From NCBI GenBank assembly GCA_039707465.1, contig CM077645.1, positions 144,453,503 to 144,517,502 on the forward strand: DNA of 64,000 nt, written 5' to 3'. The stretch is from Rhabdophis nuchalis. Its lineage: Eukaryota > Chordata > Lepidosauria > Squamata > Natricidae. A program made the translations under genes and the position numbers. The notes under the pieces were generated by a model. That model did not search any database. It saw nothing but the letters and a program-made list of their open reading frames with translations, and was not told the origin of the DNA. Below are positions 25,021-43,442 of this stretch, piece after piece (positions within the stretch are counted from its first letter, which is position 1; each line of letters starts with the position of its first letter).

Positions 25021-26055
25021 TACAAATCAGCTCTTTGCAATTCACCATATTTACAATTTTTTAGCTCAGTAATGCACAGTATCCATTGTCATCTTCTAAA
25101 CAACCTGCATGAGAGTGACTTTCAATTGGAAAGACTACTTTAATGGTCAAAATTAGCTACAGTGCTTTATTTAAAGCGCGTTGTCAAATGCTCACTGAAG
25201 GCTTCCATTACACAACTGTAGCAATACAACCTCTTCTCACAGCAACTTCCCACACACTAAGGTGAAAGAACACCTTAGATACTTAAGAACCAGTCAGAAC
25301 TTCAAGCGCATCAGTACTGCCATCTGTTGTCAACTTGTAACATTGGAGGCATTACTTACCATTTAAGCTGCGTGGATGGATTTAATCTCTCAAACTTTAC
25401 TGAAACAATAATGGAATAATTCCCATGGTTTAAACTGCAAGTACTGGAGATGTGGGAATAATAAGAACAAACTAAGTAACAGTATAGGCCTCCTTTTTTC
25501 AGCCAGATAAATTAGGAAGGGTCCTTTTGGGTTTCTTTCTCTGACCATTATGCAGCTACAGACTACATCTTCTCTTATCTGATCATAATCTAGGGAGCAT
25601 CTCCCACATCTCCCCCAAGGTAATTCACAATTTGTAATGGAACACATATGTTTTTTTTGAGCCTTGGCCATTTTATATTGAGCTGCAGTGGGTAAACTAT
25701 AGTTGCATTAAATTAATGACTTTTGATGCTGAGACTTCTATTTTTGTATCTCTGATCTAAAAGTAAACTTTTAATGTGACAGAACAAGCCATGCTTCTAA
25801 TTTTGATAGAGAAAAATAATGAGTCTCAAGTGTATGTCAATGAGGAAGTGCTTCGATCATTAATATAGAAAGGCGGTATGATTTAAGAAGCAGTACAAAT
25901 CACTTAATTAAAGGCTATATTAACCTATCACACAGACATATTTAGAAATGAGCGAGCCCCTAAAGCTGTCTCATTTAGTTTCTCATGTTTTCTCACTCAT
26001 AAGTTCATTTTCTCCAACGTCCACATACTTTTTATTTTTTTAAAATCTCAATGAA
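25021..26055. other. Unassigned sequence
   Basis: About 1 kb without a recognised feature. Confidence 0.5.
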
Positions 26056-26347
26056 AATTCATATGTCTTTTCATTGGTGCTCTTGGTTTTTGAAAATGAA
26101 ACAGGTGGTGCCATATCAAAAAAAGAAAAACTAATCCTAAACTACTTACCAAAACATCAAATAAAATGGTTTGCTCACTTGGAGAGGACTGTCTTGAGAT
26201 TCCCTTCCGTAAAAGACATATACAAAAAGAAGAGAAGGTCAAAGAACAAGATGCACATGATGAGACAACATCAAAGGCACACTACAGTATCAAATGGTTG
26301 AGGCACTAGAAGAGCAAGAACCAGAACTTTCTCTCTCTCTCAGCACT
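26056..26347. repeat. 292-bp direct repeat, left copy
   Basis: Identical to 29324-29615 except one base (T in 'acagtatc' here, C in 'acagcatc' there). It is not part of the DIRS element, because the complete DIRS at 37502-43442 has nothing like it. The junction into DIRS sequence at about 26345-26348 shares the three bases ACT. Confidence 0.97.
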
Positions 26348-26899
26348 CAGGATGGACTGGAGGGACTGCATCTTGAAGCGTTTGTATGCTAGATGCTGAT
26401 TCAGGTGTTTGAGATCTAGGATTCCCCTCCAGCCTCCCGAGTGCTTGGGTACCAGGAACAGAATCGAGTAAAAGCCTGACCCGTGGTGTCCCGCTGGCAC
26501 CAGTTCTATAGCGTTTATCTGTCTCAGGTGGGCTATCTCCTGCTCCATGAGGGACCTTCTGAGGGGAGAGGAGGGGGTGGGGCAGCGAATGAATCGCCTG
26601 GGAGGAAGGGAGGTGAACTCCAGGGTGAGACCTATCCGAATGGTCTGAAGGACCCACTGATCGGACGTGGACTGCTCCCAGGCCGCCTGAAACAATTGAA
26701 GGCGACCCCCTATGGGAGCCGTCCTCTGCGGGTCACTTAAACTTGCGGAAGGGCCGGGAGCCGGACCCACCTCGGAAGGGGCGTTTGGAATAAGATGAGC
26801 GACCCCTGTCACGGAATGAATGTCTGTCCTGACCTCTATCTGCTCCCTGATGGTAGGGCCGGTGGTACTGGCCTGAACTGGTGGAGGGCTCAGAGGCAC
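26348..26899 (-). pseudogene. DIRS reverse transcriptase, N-terminal fragment
   Basis: The frame opens with 'MPLSPPPVQ' at 26899, overlaps the end of gag by 167 nt in another phase, and contains the finger-region motif 'GGWRGILDLKHLN'. Element homology ends at 26348, before the first catalytic aspartate (motif A) and the YLDD box, so the protein would be inactive. The few codons that keep the frame open past the junction, to 26306, belong to flanking DNA. The parallel start in copy 2 is at 41014. Confidence 0.88.
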
Positions 26900-28436
26900 G
26901 AAAGGGCTGCTTCCGAAAGGAAGCAGAGCCCTTGCGATCGGATTTCTTGGAGACTGATGGCATGACCTTCTTTTTGTCCTTGTTCTCCACTAGCACGGGG
27001 TCAAGGACCTCCCCGAAGAGCTTCTCCCCTTTATAGGGGGCGGAAGCGATCTTCCATTTGGTGCGCATGTCAACGTTCCAGTGACGAAGCCAAAGGAGCC
27101 TCCTAGATGTTACATTAGAAGCCAAGGCCCTGGAAGCGAACTTGGCGGAACTGAGGGTGGCATCGGCGGTGTATGAAACACCTGCCATGATCTTACGCAA
27201 CTCCTGTCTAGTTTTGGAGTCGCCCGCCGGTACCTTGGCAAGGAGCTGACGAAGCCACTTGAGTGTGGCCCTAGACATAAAGGAGGCCGAGGTGGCAGTC
27301 TTAATTGCCCACGCAGCCGCCATGTGGGTCTTGTGGCAGGCCTTCTCTGACCTTTTGTCCTCCGCCTTAAGGCCCTCCAGGAGATCTGGAGGTAGGACAG
27401 ATGTAGAGGTGAGAGCTTGTACCGGCGGGTCCACAGGAGGCAGCTTAAGCAGGTCCTCCAGTGGGGCGTCTACTGTATAAAGCTGTTTGTCTATATTACT
27501 GTGCGATGCTGCAGTGCCCGGCTGGGCCCACTGGCGTTGAACCAGATTGAGAAACATTTTGGGCACTGGCACTATCTCCTGAGTCTCCTCAGGTTCCTCA
27601 AAAAGGCCTTCATCGTTATCGGAGACCACCTCTGGGGTCGGTGCGGGAGCTGTGACTTTCATGCGGGTGGAAACCTTGGCCTTGCCTAGAATGACTTTAA
27701 AGGTGGAACTGCGGAAAAGGCCTTTGAAGGCAGGCTTCTCCGGGGCAGCTTGCTCATCCCCAGAGAACTCCTGCTCAGGAGCCAGGTCATCCTCCACAGA
27801 GGAGTCTCCACTATCCAGGGACGAATGGGGAGAGGGAGACCTGCGAAAGGCCTGGCGCTCCACTACCTTGGAGGTACTAGGCCCCTTGGCTCGCTTGCTC
27901 TTATGCTTTAAGCCATCAGCAATCCCCTGGGAGATGGCCCTATCAATGATTGCCTGCATTTCAGCCGAAATTGCAGGCCCCTGATCTTCAACTGGCCTGG
28001 CCCTCTTACGAGGCCTAGACTGAACTGGGGGAGGAGAAACTGGCCTAGAAATAGGGGTGCCCTCCTCCTGAAATAGGTCATCATCACCCCCCAAGGAAGG
28101 TTCTGGGGAGTCATCCGAGGAGAATTCCTGTTCTTCCTCTTCCTCTGCAACATCTCTGCTAAGCAAGGGAACGTCCTCAAATTCAGCCACTTGTGCTTCT
28201 TGAACAATCACTTCAGTGATATCTTTGGAATTGTCTTTGGCTTTACGTTGGGCCTTGTCAAATTCTTTGTCAAGGGCTTTTTGGCGCCTGGAGGCAGCCC
28301 TATCCTGTGCCTTGTCCTGCTTCTTGCCCCCGGTCTTGCTAAGGGCCTCAGAGGCAGCCTTGCTGGCCTGCCTAACGAGCCCCCTGCTGGTGGATGGCCC
28401 TGGCTGTTCCTGATCTTGGGCAGCTCTTTCAGACAT
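26733..28436 (-). CDS. DIRS Gag-like protein, copy 1
   Basis: Open frame of 567 codons starting 'MSERAAQDQEQPGPSTSRG'. The N-terminal region is Lys/Arg/Ala-rich, an acidic segment ('EEEEEQEFSSDDSPEPS') lies near residues 100-120, and the C-terminus is RG/RP-rich ('RPFRGGSGSRPFRKFK'), fitting RNA binding. I see no CCHC zinc knuckle. The position as first ORF of a DIRS element supports a Gag role: binding and packaging element RNA in cytoplasmic particles. It differs from the copy 2 Gag at about 20 residues by eye, with no frameshift. That suggests a recently active, coding-constrained lineage. Function is inferred from position. Confidence 0.85.
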   Translation of the reverse strand: MSERAAQDQEQPGPSTSRGLVRQASKAASEALSKTGGKKQDKAQDRAASRRQKALDKEFDKAQRKAKDNSKDITEVIVQEAQVAEFEDVPLLSRDVAEEEEEQEFSSDDSPEPSLGGDDDLFQEEGTPISRPVSPPPVQSRPRKRARPVEDQGPAISAEMQAIIDRAISQGIADGLKHKSKRAKGPSTSKVVERQAFRRSPSPHSSLDSGDSSVEDDLAPEQEFSGDEQAAPEKPAFKGLFRSSTFKVILGKAKVSTRMKVTAPAPTPEVVSDNDEGLFEEPEETQEIVPVPKMFLNLVQRQWAQPGTAASHSNIDKQLYTVDAPLEDLLKLPPVDPPVQALTSTSVLPPDLLEGLKAEDKRSEKACHKTHMAAAWAIKTATSASFMSRATLKWLRQLLAKVPAGDSKTRQELRKIMAGVSYTADATLSSAKFASRALASNVTSRRLLWLRHWNVDMRTKWKIASAPYKGEKLFGEVLDPVLVENKDKKKVMPSVSKKSDRKGSASFRKQPFRASEPSTSSGQYHRPYHQGADRGQDRHSFRDRGRSSYSKRPFRGGSGSRPFRKFK

Positions 28437-29325
28437 CCCGGGGTTGTTAACTCACCACCTGAAGACAATGAAGGGCTCACAGCAGGACGATCACGGAGCA
28501 GCAGGAGTAGATGCAGCAACGAGAGAGCGGTAGATCAGCTCCTGGGAGACTGAAAAAACCACCTTCCAATGAGCAGGGATTGCTCAGAAGCAAAGGAGAG
28601 CCTGCCGGATCGTGGCCGGACAGGAGCGTTTCCTAAGCCTCAAGCTGGAGCCGGCAGATGCAGCGAAGATTGGAGCAGCAGCAGCAGAAATTCCTCTTCG
28701 CGCCTCCGCAAAGCAGCAAGAAAAGGCGCCCGGAAAGCAGCTGCTCAGCAACGGATCTGGGGCTTCCGGCAGCTTTCGCGCCTAATTTAGCCGCCCCCGC
28801 CTTCCTTTTGCTGTAAGAAGCGCCCGCCAATGGCTGCAGAGACCAAAAATGGCGGGCGCCGTTTGAATGAGCGGCGCGAAGCCGCTGGAACGAAGACCGG
28901 CTTCCTGATGCCGGGGGAATGGCTCCGACGCTCCAGCAGGTCAGCGCTAGGCGGCAGGGCACTCTGGCCACTGACCGAAGCGTTGCCAGGCTCCCTAGGC
29001 ACTCCGAGCCTGGGGCCAGTAAGCAGAGCCCGCGCGCGCCCGGGCGAACCCAGGACGCGTCGGGAATCTCTTTTCCTGTGAGCTTCAGGAGTAAACTCAC
29101 CTACAATCTGTAAACCTAAATTTAAAAGAGCTTTGGAGAGTCCAACTAGGTCCTGTTAGATATTTCTTTAGGAGAACCAACAGAACGTGTCCAATTGGGC
29201 TCAGACTGGATTGAAATTCTGGCAAGCACACAGGAAGAGGCGTGGCTTCAAGAAAATCAATCCAGTCCAGGGCAATCAGGCAGAATTAACCCATCGTTGG
29301 ACTCTCCAAGCAGCTCACAGGAGAA
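28437..29325 (-). other. DIRS copy 1 leader and outer inverted terminal repeat
   Basis: About 890 nt of GC-rich, CpG-rich leader precedes gag. The outermost 116 bp (29210-29325) are the same inverted terminal repeat as 43327-43442. A promoter is expected here but I cannot define it. Minus-strand open frames in the leader are composition artefacts. Confidence 0.8.
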
Positions 29326-29615
29326 TTCATATGTCTTTTCATTGGTGCTCTTGGTTTTTGAAAATGAAACAGGTGGTGCCATATCAAAAAAAGAAAAACT
29401 AATCCTAAACTACTTACCAAAACATCAAATAAAATGGTTTGCTCACTTGGAGAGGACTGTCTTGAGATTCCCTTCCGTAAAAGACATATACAAAAAGAAG
29501 AGAAGGTCAAAGAACAAGATGCACATGATGAGACAACATCAAAGGCACACTACAGCATCAAATGGTTGAGGCACTAGAAGAGCAAGAACCAGAACTTTCT
29601 CTCTCTCTCAGCACT
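29324..29615. repeat. 292-bp direct repeat, right copy
   Basis: Right partner of 26056-26347. It runs on into 'gaaagcggtaaaagaagaga', presumably the native right flank of the locus. The bases AA at 29324-29325 cannot be assigned uniquely to element or repeat. Confidence 0.97.
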
Positions 29616-29696
29616 GAAAGCGGTAAAAGAAGAGATACAGAAGAACGTGCCATATCAAAAATTGGTATCTGAATGGCACTTTGGCTTCCAGAAACA

Positions 29697-30225
29697 GAGT
29701 TCTGCCTCTACTTTTATAATACCACTTTATAATGCCTTGGTAAGGCCACACTTGGAACACTGCATTCAGTTTTGGTTGCCACAATGTAGAAAAGATGTGG
29801 AGACTCTAGAAAGAGTGCAGAGAAGAGCAACAAAGATGATTAGGGGACTGGAGGCTAAAACATATGAAGAACAGCTGCAGGAACTGGGTATGCCAAGTTT
29901 AATGAAATGAAGGACTAGGAGAGACATGATAGCAATGTTCCAATATCTCAGAGGTTGCCACAAAGAAGGTGGAATCAAACTATTCTCCAAAGCCCCTTCA
30001 GGTAGGACAAGAAGCAACGGGTGGAAACTCATCAAGGAGAGAAGCAACCTAGAACTAAGGAGAAATTTCCTGACAGTTAGAACAATTAATGCCTCTAGAA
30101 GTTGTGAATGCTCCAACACTGGAAGTTTGTTGGTTAACCATTGTCTGAAGTGGTGTAGGGTTTCCTGCCTAAGCAGGGGGTTGGACTAGAACACCTCCAA
30201 GGTCCCTTCCAACTCTGTTATTATA
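29697..30225 (+). pseudogene. CR1 LINE ORF2 C-terminus and 3' UTR
   Basis: Encodes '[17 protein letters not shown]', '[20 protein letters not shown]' and 'SNLELRRNFLTVRTIN', the C-terminal region of CR1 ORF2. It ends with the CR1 3' UTR 'ggactagaacacctccaagg'. A stop (TGA, 29908-29910) and a loss after 'RTIN' show it is dead. It is 5' truncated. Confidence 0.92.
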
Positions 30226-31584
30226 ATATATATTATATCTACTAATCCATCTCTACTCAAAACTCTTCATCCCTGGTGGACAAAACTATAGTGAATTAGC
30301 CTATTTTATTAAGGACTTGTTTACAAGGCCCAAACAATTCTACATTCCATTTATAACCATTTCCACCTTACATCCATTTAAAAAAAACATTAAAGAGAAA
30401 AGGTTGTTGCTATTTACAGCAGCGATTACTTCAAGGTCCATTTACTATTCCCAACATGTGCAGTGGGATCATAAAATGTAGAAAGAATAATAATTTTCAC
30501 TATAACTGTATCTATAATGATGTCCTATTGCTTACTTAGCCAAAAATGCTGAAAAAGTGCTGAAATGCATACCCACCCCACTGTAATCCATATTTATTCA
30601 GCATAAATGGGTCCAGAGGTTGAATTAGTAGGGGTGCAGGCTGGTCTCAGCCAGCTTTTAATGAGATATCACTGCTCATTATTTTGCACATAATCAGAAC
30701 AAGAGTTATCTAGCTTCTGTTAGCAGGAGAGTATTTCTCAAATTCCTTTAATAGCGCGCTTTTTTTTTTTGCTGAACTTCTCTGTTTACCTCTGAGATAC
30801 ATTATGAAAACTCTTTTCGTATCTCCCATAAGGCCGTGAGGCAAATTAAAACGAAAGCTGAGAAAAGCTTTCGGCCTTATGTAAAGCACGGCTTTACACG
30901 GCCTTATGTAAAGCAAACGCAAGGCTATTGTATTGAGTGAAAATCAGCAATAAAATTACAATGATTTGAAAAGTATCGGCAACAAAGAAATTTAAGTATG
31001 GCAGTAACTTTCTGCAAATATAAACGCTGGAGGAGAATAATATTAATCCTTCTAGCAAATGCCAGACAAAATCAAGCCAAACTTAAATAATTAAACTGGC
31101 TGTCTGAAATGTTATTGAATGATGAATGATTTTGTATACATGCTATGGACTGTTATAACACCAAACACTTAAATTGTCAGATCTGATTTCAATATTTTGG
31201 TTATCTAATTTTTTAAAAATGCACTTTCCAATGTTTTCCCATTTGTCTTGAGCAACTTGGTAATATGGACAAATTTCCTACATGAACAACATGGATAATA
31301 TATAAGTACATGTATTTGATGAAAGAAAACATGCACCAACCGAATAAATCAGTCAGTAAATTATTATTCAGTCAATAATCAATCTAACTGTGTGCTATTC
31401 TGCTTCAGGTTATATTAAAGGCACATTCTAAACATTACCCTCAGAATTTAATGGAATTAAACACATGGAAACAGTTACAAGTACATTTATTTATGGATCT
31501 TCTTTATTGCACTCCAAAGGAGCAGACTACTTCTTCCACAGTTCATTGACAATATGGAAATTTATTGGAATATAGGTAGTTTGT
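30226..31584. other. Mostly unassigned; small duplicated motif at 30872-30915
   Basis: No gene recognised. The 17-mer CGGCCTTATGTAAAGCA occurs at 30872-30888 and 30899-30915 with a partial inverted copy of its core between them and another near 30827-30836. Confidence 0.5.
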
Positions 31585-36676: not shown

Positions 36677-37501
36677 ATAGGCTTCTGGTTTATTGGTACA
36701 AATTACAAATCATCTGAATTTGATCAACCCACATTTACTATTACTAAGTCCACGTTACACTTATTTAAAGATTCTTTAAGATAAAAAATTAACAGAGCTG
36801 TGAGTCAGAGTACGGACTCTATAGATACTACAGTTACAATATTATAAAATTAGTCAGAAACTTTCCATAGAAGCAATGTTCCAAACAGATTGAGGTCCAT
36901 ACTTTAAAAAAATTTTTTCATCATCTTATGTATCTTTGTTTTTTTCCTTTTTGTTATTTTTATGACAGCAATAAAAATGAATTTTAAAAACTCTCCTTTC
37001 CAATCAAGTCCAAAATATTTAAAAAACATCAGGCTGAAGAAGGAATTGCCTTACAGGAATTTAGTGGTCCTTGAGCTGTTGGATTATTTAATTATTCAAT
37101 TACAAGGTTCAATGAGGAAGCTGAATTAAGGCATTAATGACACACACAAAACTCCTAAATCTACTCTATATCCTCATACTGAGATGGAATGTTCCATTTA
37201 ATAAATTGTTGTCTCAGCTTTCCCATAGCATTGCTCATATATCTGCTAGTTAGGTGCTGCACTACATTCTCCTCACTCTTTCCTCAAGGTTAATTTCTCA
37301 GGAACAAATTAGATGTGAACGTAATAGTCATAGTCATATTTGTTCAGGCTTCTAACATCTTTACTGTATTCATGAATAAAGAGACTGGTGGATGTTTTGA
37401 ACATCCTACAGAACATAAAGGTTTCTTTCATGCAATAGTACCAGGCCATTCTTTTCCCACTTGGCTTTATTTGTAAGTGGGAATAACATAATGAATGAAA
37501 A
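36677..37501. other. Mostly unassigned sequence
   Basis: A possible L1-type tail ('gcaataaaaatgaattttaa', 36969-36988) is too short to call. The last eight bases, AATGAAAA (37494-37501), are the left flank of the complete DIRS. Confidence 0.45.
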
Positions 37502-37641
37502 GTGTCGTTGGCTTACCTGAACGATCTTCTCTGTGAGCTGCGAGGAGAGTCCAACGATGGGTTAATTCTGCCTGATTGCCCTGGACTGGATTGATTTTCT
37601 TGAAGCCACGCCTCTTCCTGTGTGCTTGCCAGAATTTCAAT
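37502..37641. repeat. DIRS copy 2 inverted terminal repeat plus outer extension (3' side)
   Basis: 37527-37641 is the inverted counterpart of 43327-43442, with a few differences at its outer edge ('ctgcgagg' versus 'ctgcttgg'). The outermost 25 bp, starting GTGTCGTTGG, occur only on this side and are mirrored in the internal complementary region. Confidence 0.95.
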
Positions 37642-37791
37642 ATAGGCGTGGACCAGTAGTCCATTCTTGTTGGTCTCAAGGTGTCCAACACTCCTGGTGC
37701 AAGGTAACAGTCTGTCAAGATAGTAAATAGGTGAAGAAACAGTACAAACAACCAAGGTGTAGGAATCTACGGCTAGAGCAAGGGCGGGTTT

Positions 37792-37878
37792 GGACTCTCC
37801 TCGCAGCTCACAGAGAAGATCGTTCAGGTAAGCCAACGACACTTCTCCTGTGAGCTGCTTGGAGAGTCCAACGATGGG
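37792..37878. other. DIRS internal complementary region
   Basis: 37792-37842 is the exact complement of the left outer end (37502-37552). It is followed without a gap by 37843-37878, the complement of the right outer end (43407-43442). The junction ...CGACAC|TTCTCC... therefore records the two element ends joined. In DIRS models this region templates completion of the ends and circle formation. Confidence 0.96.
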
Positions 37879-37889
37879 AAGTGCCCAAG

Positions 37890-38999
37890 CTAAACGTTCC
37901 CAGGGCGGGAAGTAGAGTCACCGGTAGATTCCGTCGCTAAGTGAACCTGCTGCAAAACTCTGCGACCAAAGGCCGCCTCAGAGGAAGCAAACTTGTCCAA
38001 CTTGTAATTGCGGACGAACTGGGACGGAGAGGCCCAGGTGGCTGCCCTGCAGATCTCGCCAAGCGATGCTTGAGTAGCCCAGGCCGCTGAAGTCGCCGCG
38101 CTCCTGGTCGAGTGTGCCGTGATGTTCGGAGGCACCCGTTGAGCTTGTTGAGCATAGGCCGAGGCGATGCAGGATCGCAGCCACCTGCCAATGGTGGCTG
38201 AGCTGGCCTTCCTACCCATGTTGCGAGGCTGGAAGGTGACGAACAAGGCTTCCGAACGCCGGAAATTAGCTGTACGTCTTATGTAAGTCTTGAGCGCACG
38301 TCGCACGTCCAACTTATGCCATCGGCGCTCTCTGGGATGTACTGGCCGTGGGCAAAAATCAGGTAAGATAACTTCTTGGCCACGGTGGAACATGGAGTTG
38401 ACCTTCGGGACGAAGGTGGGATCGAGTCGGAGGACTACCCTGTCCTCATGGATAGCACAGAGGTCCTCCCTGACCGACAACGCCGCCAGCTCCGAAATCC
38501 TACGGGCGGATGTGATGGCCACCAGGAACACCGTCTTCAGCGTGAGGCGATTAAGGTCGCACCTTCGCAACGGTTCGAAGGGCGGGTCGATTAGGGCCCT
38601 GAGGACGATGTGCAAGTCCCATGTTGGATACCTGTGAATGACCGGGGGGCGAAGGTTGGTGGCCCCACGCAGGAAACTCTTCACGCTAGGATGTCTGGAC
38701 AAGGACGAGTAGGACCCAAAGGTGAGCACGGTGGAAAGTGCGGCCACCTGACGGCGGAGAGTGTTAGCCGCCAGCCCTTGTTCAAGCCCCCGCTGAAGGA
38801 AGTCCAGCACCTCAGAGATGGAGGCTGAAACGGGGTCGAGGTTGCGCTGTTCGCACCAGGCGACGAAGGTCGACCAGGTGGCATCATAGATTCTGGTGGT
38901 CGAGGGTCGACGTGAGGCCTGAATGGTACGTATGACGCCCTCGGAAAATTTGGCACGTTCTAGGAGCCGCCGCTCACACGCCAAACGGCTAACTGCATC
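37890..38999 (-). CDS. DIRS tyrosine recombinase
   Basis: About 370 codons, from the 'DAVSRLACERR' region to a stop 12 bases before the internal complementary region. The N-terminal part looks like a core-binding domain ('RPSTTRIYDATWSTFVAWC'). The catalytic domain shows the expected residues in order: R in 'TSARRISELAAL', H-x-x-R in 'AHSTRSAATSAAW', W in 'ATWASPSQF', and the nucleophile Y in 'FVRNYKLD'. The enzyme would integrate a circular DNA intermediate by strand exchange. The frame is uninterrupted. It stays open upstream to 40772 without a domain I recognise, so the true start is unclear; translation may depend on overlap with the RT ORF, which ends at 38960. Confidence 0.92.
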   Translation of the reverse strand, partial: DAVSRLACERRLLERAKFSEGVIRTIQASRRPSTTRIYDATWSTFVAWCEQRNLDPVSASISEVLDFLQRGLEQGLAANTLRRQVAALSTVLTFGSYSSLSRHPSVKSFLRGATNLRPPVIHRYPTWDLHIVLRALIDPPFEPLRRCDLNRLTLKTVFLVAITSARRISELAALSVREDLCAIHEDRVVLRLDPTFVPKVNSMFHRGQEVILPDFCPRPVHPRERRWHKLDVRRALKTYIRRTANFRRSEALFVTFQPRNMGRKASSATIGRWLRSCIASAYAQQAQRVPPNITAHSTRSAATSAAWATQASLGEICRAATWASPSQFVRNYKLDKFASSEAAFGRRVLQQVHLATESTGDSTSRPGNV

Positions 39000-41014
39000 C
39001 ACTGTGGCTCCGGGTGCGAAATGGAGCCCTGGATCAGCGTCACCTCCTCCAGAGGGATCCTCCACGGTTTGCTGACAGACAGACTCACCAGGTCCGCGAA
39101 CCATGACCTCCTGGGCCAGTAGGGAGCGACGACGATCACTTCCGCCTGCTCCGTGAGGATCTTCCGTATCAGACCGGGTAGCAGGGGGAGAGGCGGGAAT
39201 GCGTATAGAAGACCCGGGGGCCATCGGCACATGAGGGCATTGGTGTCCTCTGCCCCTTGACATCTGTACCTGGTGAAGTACCTCGGGAGATGCGTATTTG
39301 CCGCAGAGGCGAACAGGTCGACTGCTGGCAGGCCGAACCTCCGTGATATTTCTAGGAACAGATCCGGATGCAACTGCCACTCTGAGTTGTCGATGGTGGC
39401 CCTGCTCAGCCAGTCCGCCTGGACGTTGCTCTCCCCCGATATGTGTTCCGCCTTGATGGAGGCCAGGTTGTCCTCTGCCCAGAGACCCAAGCGTTCGGCC
39501 TCCTCCATCAACGACCTGGAGCGAGTGCCCCCTTGTCGGTTGATGTGGGCCTTGGCAGACACATTGTCTGTGAGTAGAAGAACATGCCGGTTCTGAATGG
39601 TCAGATGGAAGTGAAGAAGGGCGAGCCGAGCCGCTCTCAGCTCCAGCCAGTTTATGCTGTGCTTGAGCTCCTCCTGCGACCACGTCCCCTGAGCGACTTG
39701 GTTGTCCAGGTGGGCTCCCCACCCAAAGAGACTGGCGTCGGTGGTGATGACCACTCGGTCCGGCTCGCGGAAGAGACAGCCCTTGGCCAAGGACTCCGCC
39801 CTCCACCACTTCAGGGACGATCGTACCTGGCTGGGGACCGGAACCGGCCTGGGAGAATCGCTGTCCTTGGCTCTTTGGTATGGTAACAGACACCACTGTA
39901 GGTGCCGAGAGTGCAGCCTCGCCCAGGGTACTATGGAGAGGCAGGAGACCATCTTGCCGAGGAGTTACGACAAGAGGACAATGGGCGCAGTCCTGGATGC
40001 CCTCACTCTCTGTACAAGGCTGAGCAGACTTGTCACACGTTCCTGGGACAGATAAACCTGGCAGGCGATGGTGTCGATGACAGCCCCCAGATGAGTTATC
40101 CTGGTAGTGGGAGTCAGGTGGCTCTTCTTCAGGTTGATGGAGAACCCGTGCTGTTCGAGGGTTCGCATGGTCAGACGTAGGTCCCTGATCGCCTGGCGGT
40201 GGCTTGACGATTGAACTACGATGTCGTCTAGGTATGCTTGGAGACGAACCGGTCGCGACCTGAGCGATGCCAGGACTGCCGCCAGAACCTTCGTGAACGT
40301 CCTCGGGGCGGAGGACAGACCGAAGGGGAGGGCCCTGTATTGGTAGTGGTTGCCCGCGTAATAAAACCTGAGGAACCTGCGATGTGCCTTTCAAACCGGG
40401 ACATGGAGGTAAGCCTCCTGGAGATCTATGGATGTTAAGAGATCCCCTGGTCGAATGCAACTCAGGATGGACTGGAGGGACTGCATCTTGAAGCGTTTGT
40501 ATGCAAGATGCTGATTCAGGTGTTTGAGATCTAGGATTCCCCTCCAGCCTCCCGAGTTCTTGGGTACCAGGAACAGAATCGAGTAAAAACCTGATCCCTG
40601 ATGTTCTGCTGGCACCGGTTCTATTGCGTTTATCTCTCTCAGGTGGGCTACCTCCTGCTCCATGAGGGACCTTCTGAGGGGAGAGGCGGGGGTGGGGCAG
40701 CAAATGAATCGCCTGGGAGGAAGGGAGGTGAACTCCAGGGTGAGACCCATCCGAATGGTCTGAAGGACCCACTGATCGGACGTGGTCTGCTCCCAGGCCG
40801 CCTGAAACAGTTGTAGGCGACCCCCTATGGGAGCTGTCCTCTGCGGGTCACTTAAACTTGCGGAAGGGTCGGGAACTGGACCCACCTCGGAAGGGGCGTT
40901 TGGAATAAGATGAGCGACCCCTGTCATGGAATGAATGTCTGTCTTGACCTCTATCTGCTCCCTGATGGTAGGGCCGGTGGTACTGGCCTGAACTGGTGGA
41001 GGGCTCAGAGGCAC
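38960..41014 (-). pseudogene. DIRS RT / RNase H / methylase-like ORF with two nonsense codons
   Basis: One reading frame of 684 codons. The start 'MPLSPPPVQ' overlaps gag by 167 nt. RT motifs: 'GGWRGILDLKHLN', 'LTSIDLQEAYLHVP' (motif A) and catalytic YLDD (40223-40234). RNase H motifs: 'TTDASLFGWGA', 'NWLELRA', 'LLLTDN' and 'VQADWLSR'. The C-terminal 'PAVDLFASAANTHLP...YAFPPLPLLP' region is conserved in DIRS elements and described as methyltransferase-like. TGA at 40391-40393 and TAA at 39965-39967 break the frame, the first right after motif A. It would copy element RNA into cDNA, but this copy should be inactive unless the stops are read through. There are no frameshifts, so decay is recent. 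Confidence 0.93.
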
Positions 41015-42551
41015 GAAAGGGCTGCTTCCGAAAGGAAGCAGAGCCCTTGCGATCGGATTTCTTGGAGACTGATGGCATGACCTTCTTTTTGTCCTTGTTC
41101 TCCACTAGCACGGGGTCAAGGACCTCCCCGAAGAGCTTCTCCCCTTTATAGGGGGCAGAAGCGATCTTCCACTTGGAGCGCATGTCAACGTTCCAGTGAC
41201 GAAGCCAAAGAAGCCTTCTAGATGTTACATTAGATGCCAAGGCCCTGGAGGCGAACTTGGCGGAACTGAGGGTGGCATCGGCGGTGTATGAAACACCTGC
41301 CATGATCTTACGTAACTCTTGTCTAGTTTTGGAGTCGCCCGCTGGTACTTTGGCAAGGAGCTGTCGAAGCCACTTGAGTGTGGCCCTTGACATAAAGGAG
41401 GCCGAGGTGGCAGTATTAATTGCCCATGCAGCCGCCATGTGGGTCTTGTGGCAGGCCTTCTCGGACCTTTTGTCCTCCGCCTTAAGGCCTTCCAGGAGAT
41501 CTGGAGGTAGGACAGACGTGGAGGTGAGGGCTTGTACCGGCGGGTCCACTGGAGGCAGTTTAAGCAGGTCCTCCAGTGGGGCGTCTACTGTATATAGCTG
41601 TTTGTCTATATTACTGTGGGATGTTGCAGTGCCCAGCTGGGCCCACTGGCGTTGAACCAGATTGAGAAACAGCTTGGGCACTGGAACTATCTCCTGAGTC
41701 TCCTCAGGTTCCTCAAAAAGGCCCTCATCGTTATCAGAGACCACCTCTGGGGTCGGTGCAGGGGCTGTGACCTTCATGCGGGTGGAAACCTTAGCCTTGC
41801 CTAGAATGACCTTAAAGGTGGAACTGCAGAAAAGGCCTTTAAAGGCAGGTTTTTCCGGGGCAGCTTGCTCATCCCCAGAGAACTCCTGCTCAGGAGCCAG
41901 GTCATCCTCTGCAGAGGAGTCTCCACTATCCAGGGACGAATGGGGAGAGGGAGACCTGCGAAAAGCCTGGCGCTCAACTACCTTGGAGGCACTGGGCCCC
42001 TTGGCTCGCTTGCTCCTATGCTTCAAGCCATCAGCAATCCCCTGGGAGATGGCCCTATCAATGATTGCCTGCATTTCAGCCGAAATTGCAGGCCCCTGAT
42101 CTTCAACTGGCCTGGCCCTCTTATGAGGCCTAGAATGAACTGGGGGAGGAGAAACTGGCCTGGAAATAGGGGTGCCCTCCTCCTGAAATAGGTCATCATC
42201 ACCCCCCAAGGAAGGTTCTGGGGAGTCATCCGAAGAGAATTCCTGTTCTCCCTCTTCCTCTGCAACATCTCTGCCAAGCAAGGGAACCTCCTCAAATTCA
42301 GCCACTTGTGCTTCTTGAACAATCACATCAGTGATTTCTTTGGTATTTTCTTTGGCTTTACGTTGGGCCTTGTCAAATTCTTTGTCAAGGGCTTTTTGGC
42401 GCCTGGAGGCAGCCCTATCCTGTGCCTTGTCCTGCTTCTTGCCCCCGGTCTTGCTAAGGGCCTCAGAGGCAGCCTTGCTGGCCTGCCTAACAAGCCCCCT
42501 GCTGGTGGATGGCCCTGGCTGTTCCTGATCTTGGGCAGCTCTTTCAGACAT
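40848..42551 (-). CDS. DIRS Gag-like protein, copy 2
   Basis: Intact 567-codon frame, same length as the copy 1 Gag and about 20 substitutions from it by eye. It has the same acidic segment (residues about 95-120), a central region 'MAAAWAINTATSASFMSRAT' and an RG-rich basic tail ending 'RPFRKFK'. No zinc knuckle. Likely the structural, RNA-binding protein of the element's particles, inferred from position. Its TGA stop is the only stop in this phase between 42551 and the end of the recombinase at 37890. Confidence 0.87.
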   Translation of the reverse strand: MSERAAQDQEQPGPSTSRGLVRQASKAASEALSKTGGKKQDKAQDRAASRRQKALDKEFDKAQRKAKENTKEITDVIVQEAQVAEFEEVPLLGRDVAEEEGEQEFSSDDSPEPSLGGDDDLFQEEGTPISRPVSPPPVHSRPHKRARPVEDQGPAISAEMQAIIDRAISQGIADGLKHRSKRAKGPSASKVVERQAFRRSPSPHSSLDSGDSSAEDDLAPEQEFSGDEQAAPEKPAFKGLFCSSTFKVILGKAKVSTRMKVTAPAPTPEVVSDNDEGLFEEPEETQEIVPVPKLFLNLVQRQWAQLGTATSHSNIDKQLYTVDAPLEDLLKLPPVDPPVQALTSTSVLPPDLLEGLKAEDKRSEKACHKTHMAAAWAINTATSASFMSRATLKWLRQLLAKVPAGDSKTRQELRKIMAGVSYTADATLSSAKFASRALASNVTSRRLLWLRHWNVDMRSKWKIASAPYKGEKLFGEVLDPVLVENKDKKKVMPSVSKKSDRKGSASFRKQPFRASEPSTSSGQYHRPYHQGADRGQDRHSFHDRGRSSYSKRPFRGGSSSRPFRKFK

Positions 42552-43442
42552 CCCGGGGTTGTTAACTCACCACCTGAAGACAATGAAGGGCTCACAGCAG
42601 GACGATCACGGAGCAGCAGGAGTAGATGCAGCAACGAGAGAGCGGTAGATCAGCTCCTGGGAGACTGAAAAAACCACCTTCCAATGAGCAGGGATTGCTC
42701 AGAAGCAAAGGAGAGCCTGCCGGATCGTGGCCGGACAGGAGCGTTTCCTAAGCCTCAAGCTGGAGCCGGCAGATGCAGCGACGATCGGGGAAAAGCAGCA
42801 GCTGAAAATCCTCTTCGCGCCTCTGCAAACCAGCCAGAAACGGCGCCAGGAAAGCAGCTGCTCAGCAACGGATCTGGGGCTTCCGGCAGCTTTCGCGCCT
42901 AATTTAGCCGCCCCCGCCTTCCTTTTGCTGCAAAAAGCGCCCGCCAATGGCTGCAGAGACCAAAAATGGCGGGCGCAGTTTGAATGAGCGGCGCGAAGCC
43001 GCTGGCACGAAGACCGGCTTCCTGATGCCGGGGGAAGGCTCCGACGCTCCAGCAGGTCAGCGCTAGGCGGCCACTGACTCTGGCCACTGACCGAAGCGCT
43101 GCCAGGCTCCCTAGGCACTCCGAGCCTGGGGCCAGTATGCAGAGCCCGCGCGCGCCCGGGCGAACCCAGGACGCGTCGGGAATCGCTCTTCAGTGAGTCT
43201 TAAGATAAAAACTCACCGACAATCTGTAAACTTAAAAGTAAAATCGCTTTTGGAGAGTCCAACTAGGTCCTGTTAGAAATTTCTTTAGGAGAACCAACAG
43301 AACGTGTCCAATTGGGCTCAGACTGGATTGAAATTCTGGCAAGCACACAGGAAGAGGCGTGGCTTCAAGAAAATCAATCCAGTCCAGGGCAATCAGGCAG
43401 AATTAACCCATCGTTGGACTCTCCAAGCAGCTCACAGGAGAA
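42552..43442 (-). other. DIRS copy 2 leader and inverted terminal repeat (5' side)
   Basis: The outermost 116 bp (43327-43442) form the inverted repeat. The next 775 bp are a GC- and CpG-rich leader without a supported gene. Compared with copy 1 it has clustered differences around 42780-42850, so the leader evolves faster than gag. Confidence 0.88.

Follow-up and report, generated by a model that had tools for sequence, protein, structure and literature searches.

Two near-identical copies of a 292-bp host segment flank half of a DIRS element

How does half of a retrotransposon come to lie between two nearly identical copies of the same host sequence? We addressed this question in a stretch of 64,000 nucleotides (the window; C3:144453503-144517502), together with searches of the 1,917,733,297-base assembly (348 sequences) to which it belongs. 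Self-comparison of the window revealed that positions 26056-26347 (R1) and 29324-29615 (R2) are identical at 291 of 292 bases at an offset of 3268, the sole difference being T at 26288 in R1 versus C at 29556 in R2; a preliminary description of this DNA had reported the same coordinates and a difference of one base in 292. Beyond 26056 and 26347 the identity between the copies ends immediately, chance matches aside. The order along the window is A-R1-E-R2-B, where E is the half DIRS (26348-29325, minus strand), A (25456-26055) is a left flank of host DNA with a short old repeat, and B (29616-30300) is the right flank, into which R2 runs on. Flank A is single-copy in the genome: its 600 bp returned one full match, and the other 39 scored matches were 60-143 bp long at 73-87% identity. 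In flank B, positions 29616-29700 occur once in the window, 29770-30069 are a member of a dispersed family with four copies in the window, and the flank includes what is presumably a CR1-like fragment. Over the 144 kb that comprise the window and 40 kb to either side of it, the assembly contains no N.

When the genome was searched with R, the two focal copies were the only near-identical ones among 40 scored matches; at the 38 other places, R positions 72-291 were matched as a diverged, old dispersed repeat (70-85% identity). Likewise, no other pair longer than 100 bp at ≥97.5% identity was found in the surrounding 144 kb. A chance origin of R1 and R2 is excluded by these two results. We rejected the idea that R is part of the element, since R is unmatched in the full-length copy described below and its positions 72-291 are an old repeat elsewhere, as well as the idea of a pre-existing tandem of R with a DIRS at the boundary, for which both ends of the insert would need exact boundaries, one of them an internal break. 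At the position of base 26288, five of six diverged relatives carry C (in an alignment that is loose there); the T in R1 is probably the derived base, which would fit a change after the event as well as allelic variation or an error made in copying.

The insert corresponds to the 5′ half of a DIRS1-like element

A full-length DIRS lies in the same orientation 14 kb from E, and it served as our reference. Recognized by its inverted terminal repeats (ITRs), internal complementary regions (ICR), right extension and flanks, it spans 37500-43442 on the minus strand (~5.94 kb) and is inserted at ATGAATGAAAA|TGTCTG. The right extension measures ~26 bp and the ITRs ~116 bp (37527-37641 versus 43327-43442; 97.4%), and the internal complementary regions lie at 37790-37844 and 37843-37878 (ICR overall 37790-37878). 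Membership in the DIRS1-like class is supported by the ITRs, the internal complementary regions matching both termini, and the absence of a target site duplication (TSD) in both-ended copies. The copy contains a 567-aa gag frame free of stops, as well as a 960-aa frame that overlaps an RNase H-like frame. For RT and the tyrosine recombinase Pfam yielded little: two RNase H-like matches both fell under the Pfam cut-off, and the 960-aa frame had no Pfam match, an HSTR motif in it being spotted by eye. ITR divergence was dropped as a dating tool, given that the 3′ ITR of the full copy matches the 5′ ITRs of 20 of 30 copies equally well (97.414%), which suggests that the mismatch is a family-level difference rather than a sign of age.

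E aligns to 40463-43442, the right half of the full DIRS, at 96.0% identity excluding gaps (118 mismatches, 8 gap columns), which identifies it as the 5′ half of a DIRS1-like element, broken just inside the RT frame; the ICR and the 3′ ITR, both located in the missing 3′ half, are absent from it. By comparison with the full copy, E retains the 5′ ITR and the exact 5′ terminus (29210-29325, minus strand; terminus CACAGGAGAA), a stop-free gag-like frame of 567 aa (26733-28436, minus strand), and the start of the RT frame, which is truncated and extends into R1 (26306-26899, minus strand; compare 40391-41014). The earlier statement that only the gag half of a DIRS lies between the copies is right in that half a DIRS is present, and falls short in leaving out the 5′ terminus, the 5′ ITR and the RT-frame start. 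Both gag frames of the window (26733-28436 and 40848-42551) match PF11560 (LAP2alpha), and the vertebrate LAP2alpha domain derives from DIRS gag. Among the best 7988 candidates scored, 15 protein relatives of the gag frame were found, namely 11 with an organism name, all from snakes at 38-58% identity, and 4 unnamed; a squamate host is accordingly probable.

Between the two gag frames of the window, 43 codons differ synonymously and 20 non-synonymously. The nearest relative of E, among the copies compared over 1696 bp, is the copy L019 (99.47%, 9 differences). A recent event is indicated alike by the identity to L019, by the gag-frame differences and by how little R1 differs from R2; the single R1/R2 difference cannot supply a date.

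Positions 28378-28666 match the full copy over 289 consecutive identical bases despite the 4% overall divergence, and two 100-column stretches of the same alignment hold 13 and 17 differences. This identity pattern is mosaic, of the kind that template switching between DIRS copies, or gene conversion among them, would leave.

An empty target site appears to be joined to an occupied one

In all 30 loci of the first terminus search (the focal half and the full copy counted), homology to the full copy reaches the last terminal bases; the ten terminal letters were read directly for 29 of the 30, and L042 is likewise complete to its end, with one substitution a few bases inward. Judged by these termini, the right end of E at 29325 is the canonical integration end. 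Its last two bases, AA (29324-29325), are common to E and R.

The column consensus preceding the element in 25 other copies is GARAA. Strict GARAA was found in 10 of the 25, GAAAA in 7, and the count rises to 16 if T is also allowed at -5; in the window background, GAR precedes 4.3% of AA dinucleotides. The preference is loose, with 15 of 25 copies deviating from the full GARAA, and on the opposite side of the insertion site nothing conserved was seen by eye. An empty motif of this kind, GAAAA with T as the next base, is located at 26053-26057 (plus strand): the A-R1 junction GAAAA|TTC runs TCTCAATGAAAA then TTCATATG, unbroken into R, and its site is equal to the target of the full DIRS in the window. 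On this evidence A-R1 has the form of a target without an insertion, and E-R2-B that of a target with one. With a left junction that suits an unoccupied target and a canonical right end, the locus would represent an empty site joined to an occupied site, and not an oversized TSD; the preliminary description had already judged 292 bp too long for a retrotransposon TSD.

The join itself lies at the left end of E, where R and the DIRS interior share the three bases ACT (26345-26347, plus strand), the microhomology already pointed out in the preliminary description. A 300-bp query across this junction gave 38 DIRS copies among 40 scored matches; in 26 of the 38 the match starts at 26345, giving a 3-bp overlap, and in the other 12 it starts at 26346 and shares CT only, and only the focal place was matched through the junction. 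Since simulated random junctions overlapped by ≥3 bp in 5% of cases (1 in 20), the ACT overlap says little by itself. The end of R1 also adjoins a (CT)n run. The whole structure reads as an empty site, A-R1, and an occupied site, E-R-B, fused at 26347 to mid-element across ACT.

No direct flank duplication accompanies other DIRS copies in the sample

To place the locus among its relatives, we fetched the expected 3′ ends of the 28 other copies of the first terminus search, ten further listed matches being left out. The 3′ terminus GTGTCG was present in 25 of the 28 (17 of 20 in a first batch, 7 more, and L040), at least three of which carry an internal deletion (L026, L038 and L040). The three exceptions were L029, whose 3′ ITR is interrupted, L042, and L045, a 464-bp 5′ fragment. 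None of the 25 copies with both termini has a direct flank repeat, in line with the earlier remark that tyrosine-recombinase elements normally make no target duplication. For L029 (also L058; G000:C3:192428335-192436664), a 3′ terminus was found 8330 bp from the 5′ end, ~2.4 kb beyond the usual distance, perhaps owing to a later insertion.

Genome-wide, allowing ≤3 mismatches, there are 308 5′ termini and 131 3′ termini. For pairing we took the 81 listed 5′ termini carrying ≤1 mismatch and, from the 131 3′ termini, a set of 78, of which 65 were exact, 10 carried one mismatch and 3 carried two. A 3′ terminus lay ≤15 kb away for 73 of the 81; the eight without a partner were the focal half, both ends of L042, L045, L081 (108 bp left), L082 (178 bp left), L083 (3′-truncated, ~91% identical) and L084 (full length, diverged). 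Comparing mostly 300-550 bp of left flank, and ~500 bp of right flank for L081-L084, we found a direct near-identical flank duplication in 0 of 32 other copies (28 + 4), after discounting weak matches (one of 21 bp in L053/L024; 66-80% identity in L045; three of 16-30 bp in L081). The focal flank duplication is single in the examined sample. A TSD as a habit of the family was rejected on the same count. Our literature search, as far as the accessible text of the sources extends, recognized no flank duplication at a DIRS.

One copy has copied flank of another kind. In L042 (also L072; G000:C5:95006709-95012614), the 3′ terminus is replaced by a second 5′-type terminus, and outward of it is an exact inverted 92-bp copy of the host DNA beyond the true 5′ end. 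The simplest reading is a likely fold-back repair through the ITRs, in which the broken 3′ ITR paired with the 5′ ITR, was elongated through it into the flanking DNA and then became attached to other DNA. L042 comes from one assembly and could itself be an artifact; its inverted flank copy makes the copying of flanks at damaged DIRS ends credible in the focal genome.

A repair scar is weighed against an assembly chimera and minor alternatives

We favor the reading that the rearrangement is real and is a scar left by interrupted repair, and we assign this reading a probability of roughly 0.48. A DIRS would have inserted normally at TGAAAA|TTC without target duplication, a step supported by the intact 5′ end of E and the empty target at A-R1. 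At a time when a homolog or sister without the insertion still existed, the element would have broken, or have been only half joined, and the 3′ half would have been lost. The end of A may have copied the empty template past the insertion point and 292 bp further, until synthesis stopped and the released end was sealed at ACT onto what remained of the element, so that R1 would be freshly copied flank and R2 the original flank. What we observe for this account is the canonical 5′ end, the ACT overlap, the near-identity of R1 and R2, and the unbroken target-like A-R1 junction; from these letters we infer the break, the template and the order of events. Breakpoint microhomology (ACT) and a copied tract matching a plausible template are both features of such a scar, the latter being shared by a chimera.

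A two-allele assembly chimera would give exactly this structure. If the animal is heterozygous for a complete DIRS, the assembler, a gap filler or a consensus step could have joined the empty allele (to 26347) to the occupied allele in mid-element, which we regard as a serious prospect at somewhat less than even odds. The left part fits the empty allele and the right part the occupied one, two alleles could plausibly differ at one base in 292, and R1 terminates beside the (CT)n run; insertions of a young DIRS family would also likely be heterozygous. However, the join spans only 3 bp, an overlap that is not normal for assembly, a second copy of A is absent, and no other near-identical short flank duplication occurs in the 32 other DIRS copies or the 144 kb. 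With one copy of A and just two near-identical copies of R, the genome shows no sign of a leftover haplotig. At 1.92 Gb in 348 sequences, the assembly was probably built from long reads. That the 144 kb contain no N is mild support for a real structure, although a filled gap would be invisible. In the accessible text of the reports, false heterotype duplications from heterozygosity are common and well documented (PMC9516828), whereas within-contig duplications were rarely mis-assembled, in older assemblies (PMC2864568). Chimera and real repair with ACT were the two readings of the preliminary description; both survive, and as they predict the same letters, neither is singled out. All routes to a real structure together stand slightly ahead of the chimera.

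One such route is that DIRS integration can be one-sided, which we consider improbable. Here, the tyrosine recombinase, acting during replication, would have attached a DIRS circle to R by its 5′ end alone; the free other end would have been degraded and then healed at ACT onto the empty sister chromatid 292 bp past the target. The canonical 5′ end, the missing 3′ half and the intact empty target fit this, and L045, L081, L082 and L083 are 5′-end copies lacking a 3′ end in the stretch read; these four, however, lack any direct duplication of their flanks, and they could also have lost their 3′ ends, or had them displaced, through subsequent insertions or deletions. A complete insertion that broke later accounts for the focal letters without a new mode of integration. 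If one-sided integration is true, the 5′-only fragments at other loci would be further products of this abortive reaction. A circle of the half element and R (unit 3268 bp), closed at ACT and recombined homologously with R on the empty chromosome, yields exactly A-R-E-R-B; as it requires two events, has only 292 bp of homology to work with and no specific support, we think it very improbable. Still harder to credit is a true 292-bp TSD from a staggered cut, for instance through mobilization by LINE machinery: the insert is indeed flanked by direct repeats, but it starts exactly at the DIRS 5′ terminus in a DIRS-like target and is truncated on the 3′ side, while LINE products are typically 5′-truncated, and no poly(A) was seen at the junction.

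Comparison with known systems

Either way, this is not a new kind of target duplication. If real, the locus offers a legible record of repair at a tyrosine-recombinase retrotransposon during insertion polymorphism, because the empty site has survived beside the damaged occupied site. If false, it is an allele chimera within an N-free stretch that gap-based checks would miss. False heterotype duplications resemble it in that alleles placed end to end mimic a recent duplication; in the accessible text of PMC9516828 and PMC2864568 one of their main marks is a gap between the copies, whereas no N separates the focal copies or occurs in the 144 kb.

As an element, the full copy resembles AcDIRS1 and AcDIRS2 of Anolis, for which the accessible text of PMC3266345 gives a DIRS1-like architecture with ITRs of 26+136 to 26+140: it shares the length of ~5.94 kb, the ITRs, the ~26-bp right extension, the lack of a TSD and, in our reading of the sequence, two internal complementary regions that abut at an AAG-type junction. 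The focal copy, unlike these, has lost the 3′ half, the ICR and the 3′ ITR and is flanked by the 292-bp direct duplication.

As a repair product, the locus would find its closest parallels in two systems, described here from the accessible text of the reports. In the Drosophila P{wa} assay, repair synthesis is interrupted and closed by end joining (PMC3330096); partial copying of a template and joining before completion would be common to both, but in that assay the break is an induced one and the element sits on the uncut sister used as template, whereas here the template would be the empty site and is deduced from sequence. In animal Pack-TIRs, gaps in DNA transposons are filled with a median microhomology of 2 bp (PMC8277862). 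The likeness is that nearby host DNA is copied into a broken transposon across short microhomology; the difference is that Pack-TIRs are DNA transposons that capture host DNA inside, whereas here a tyrosine-recombinase retrotransposon would have its copied flank outside.
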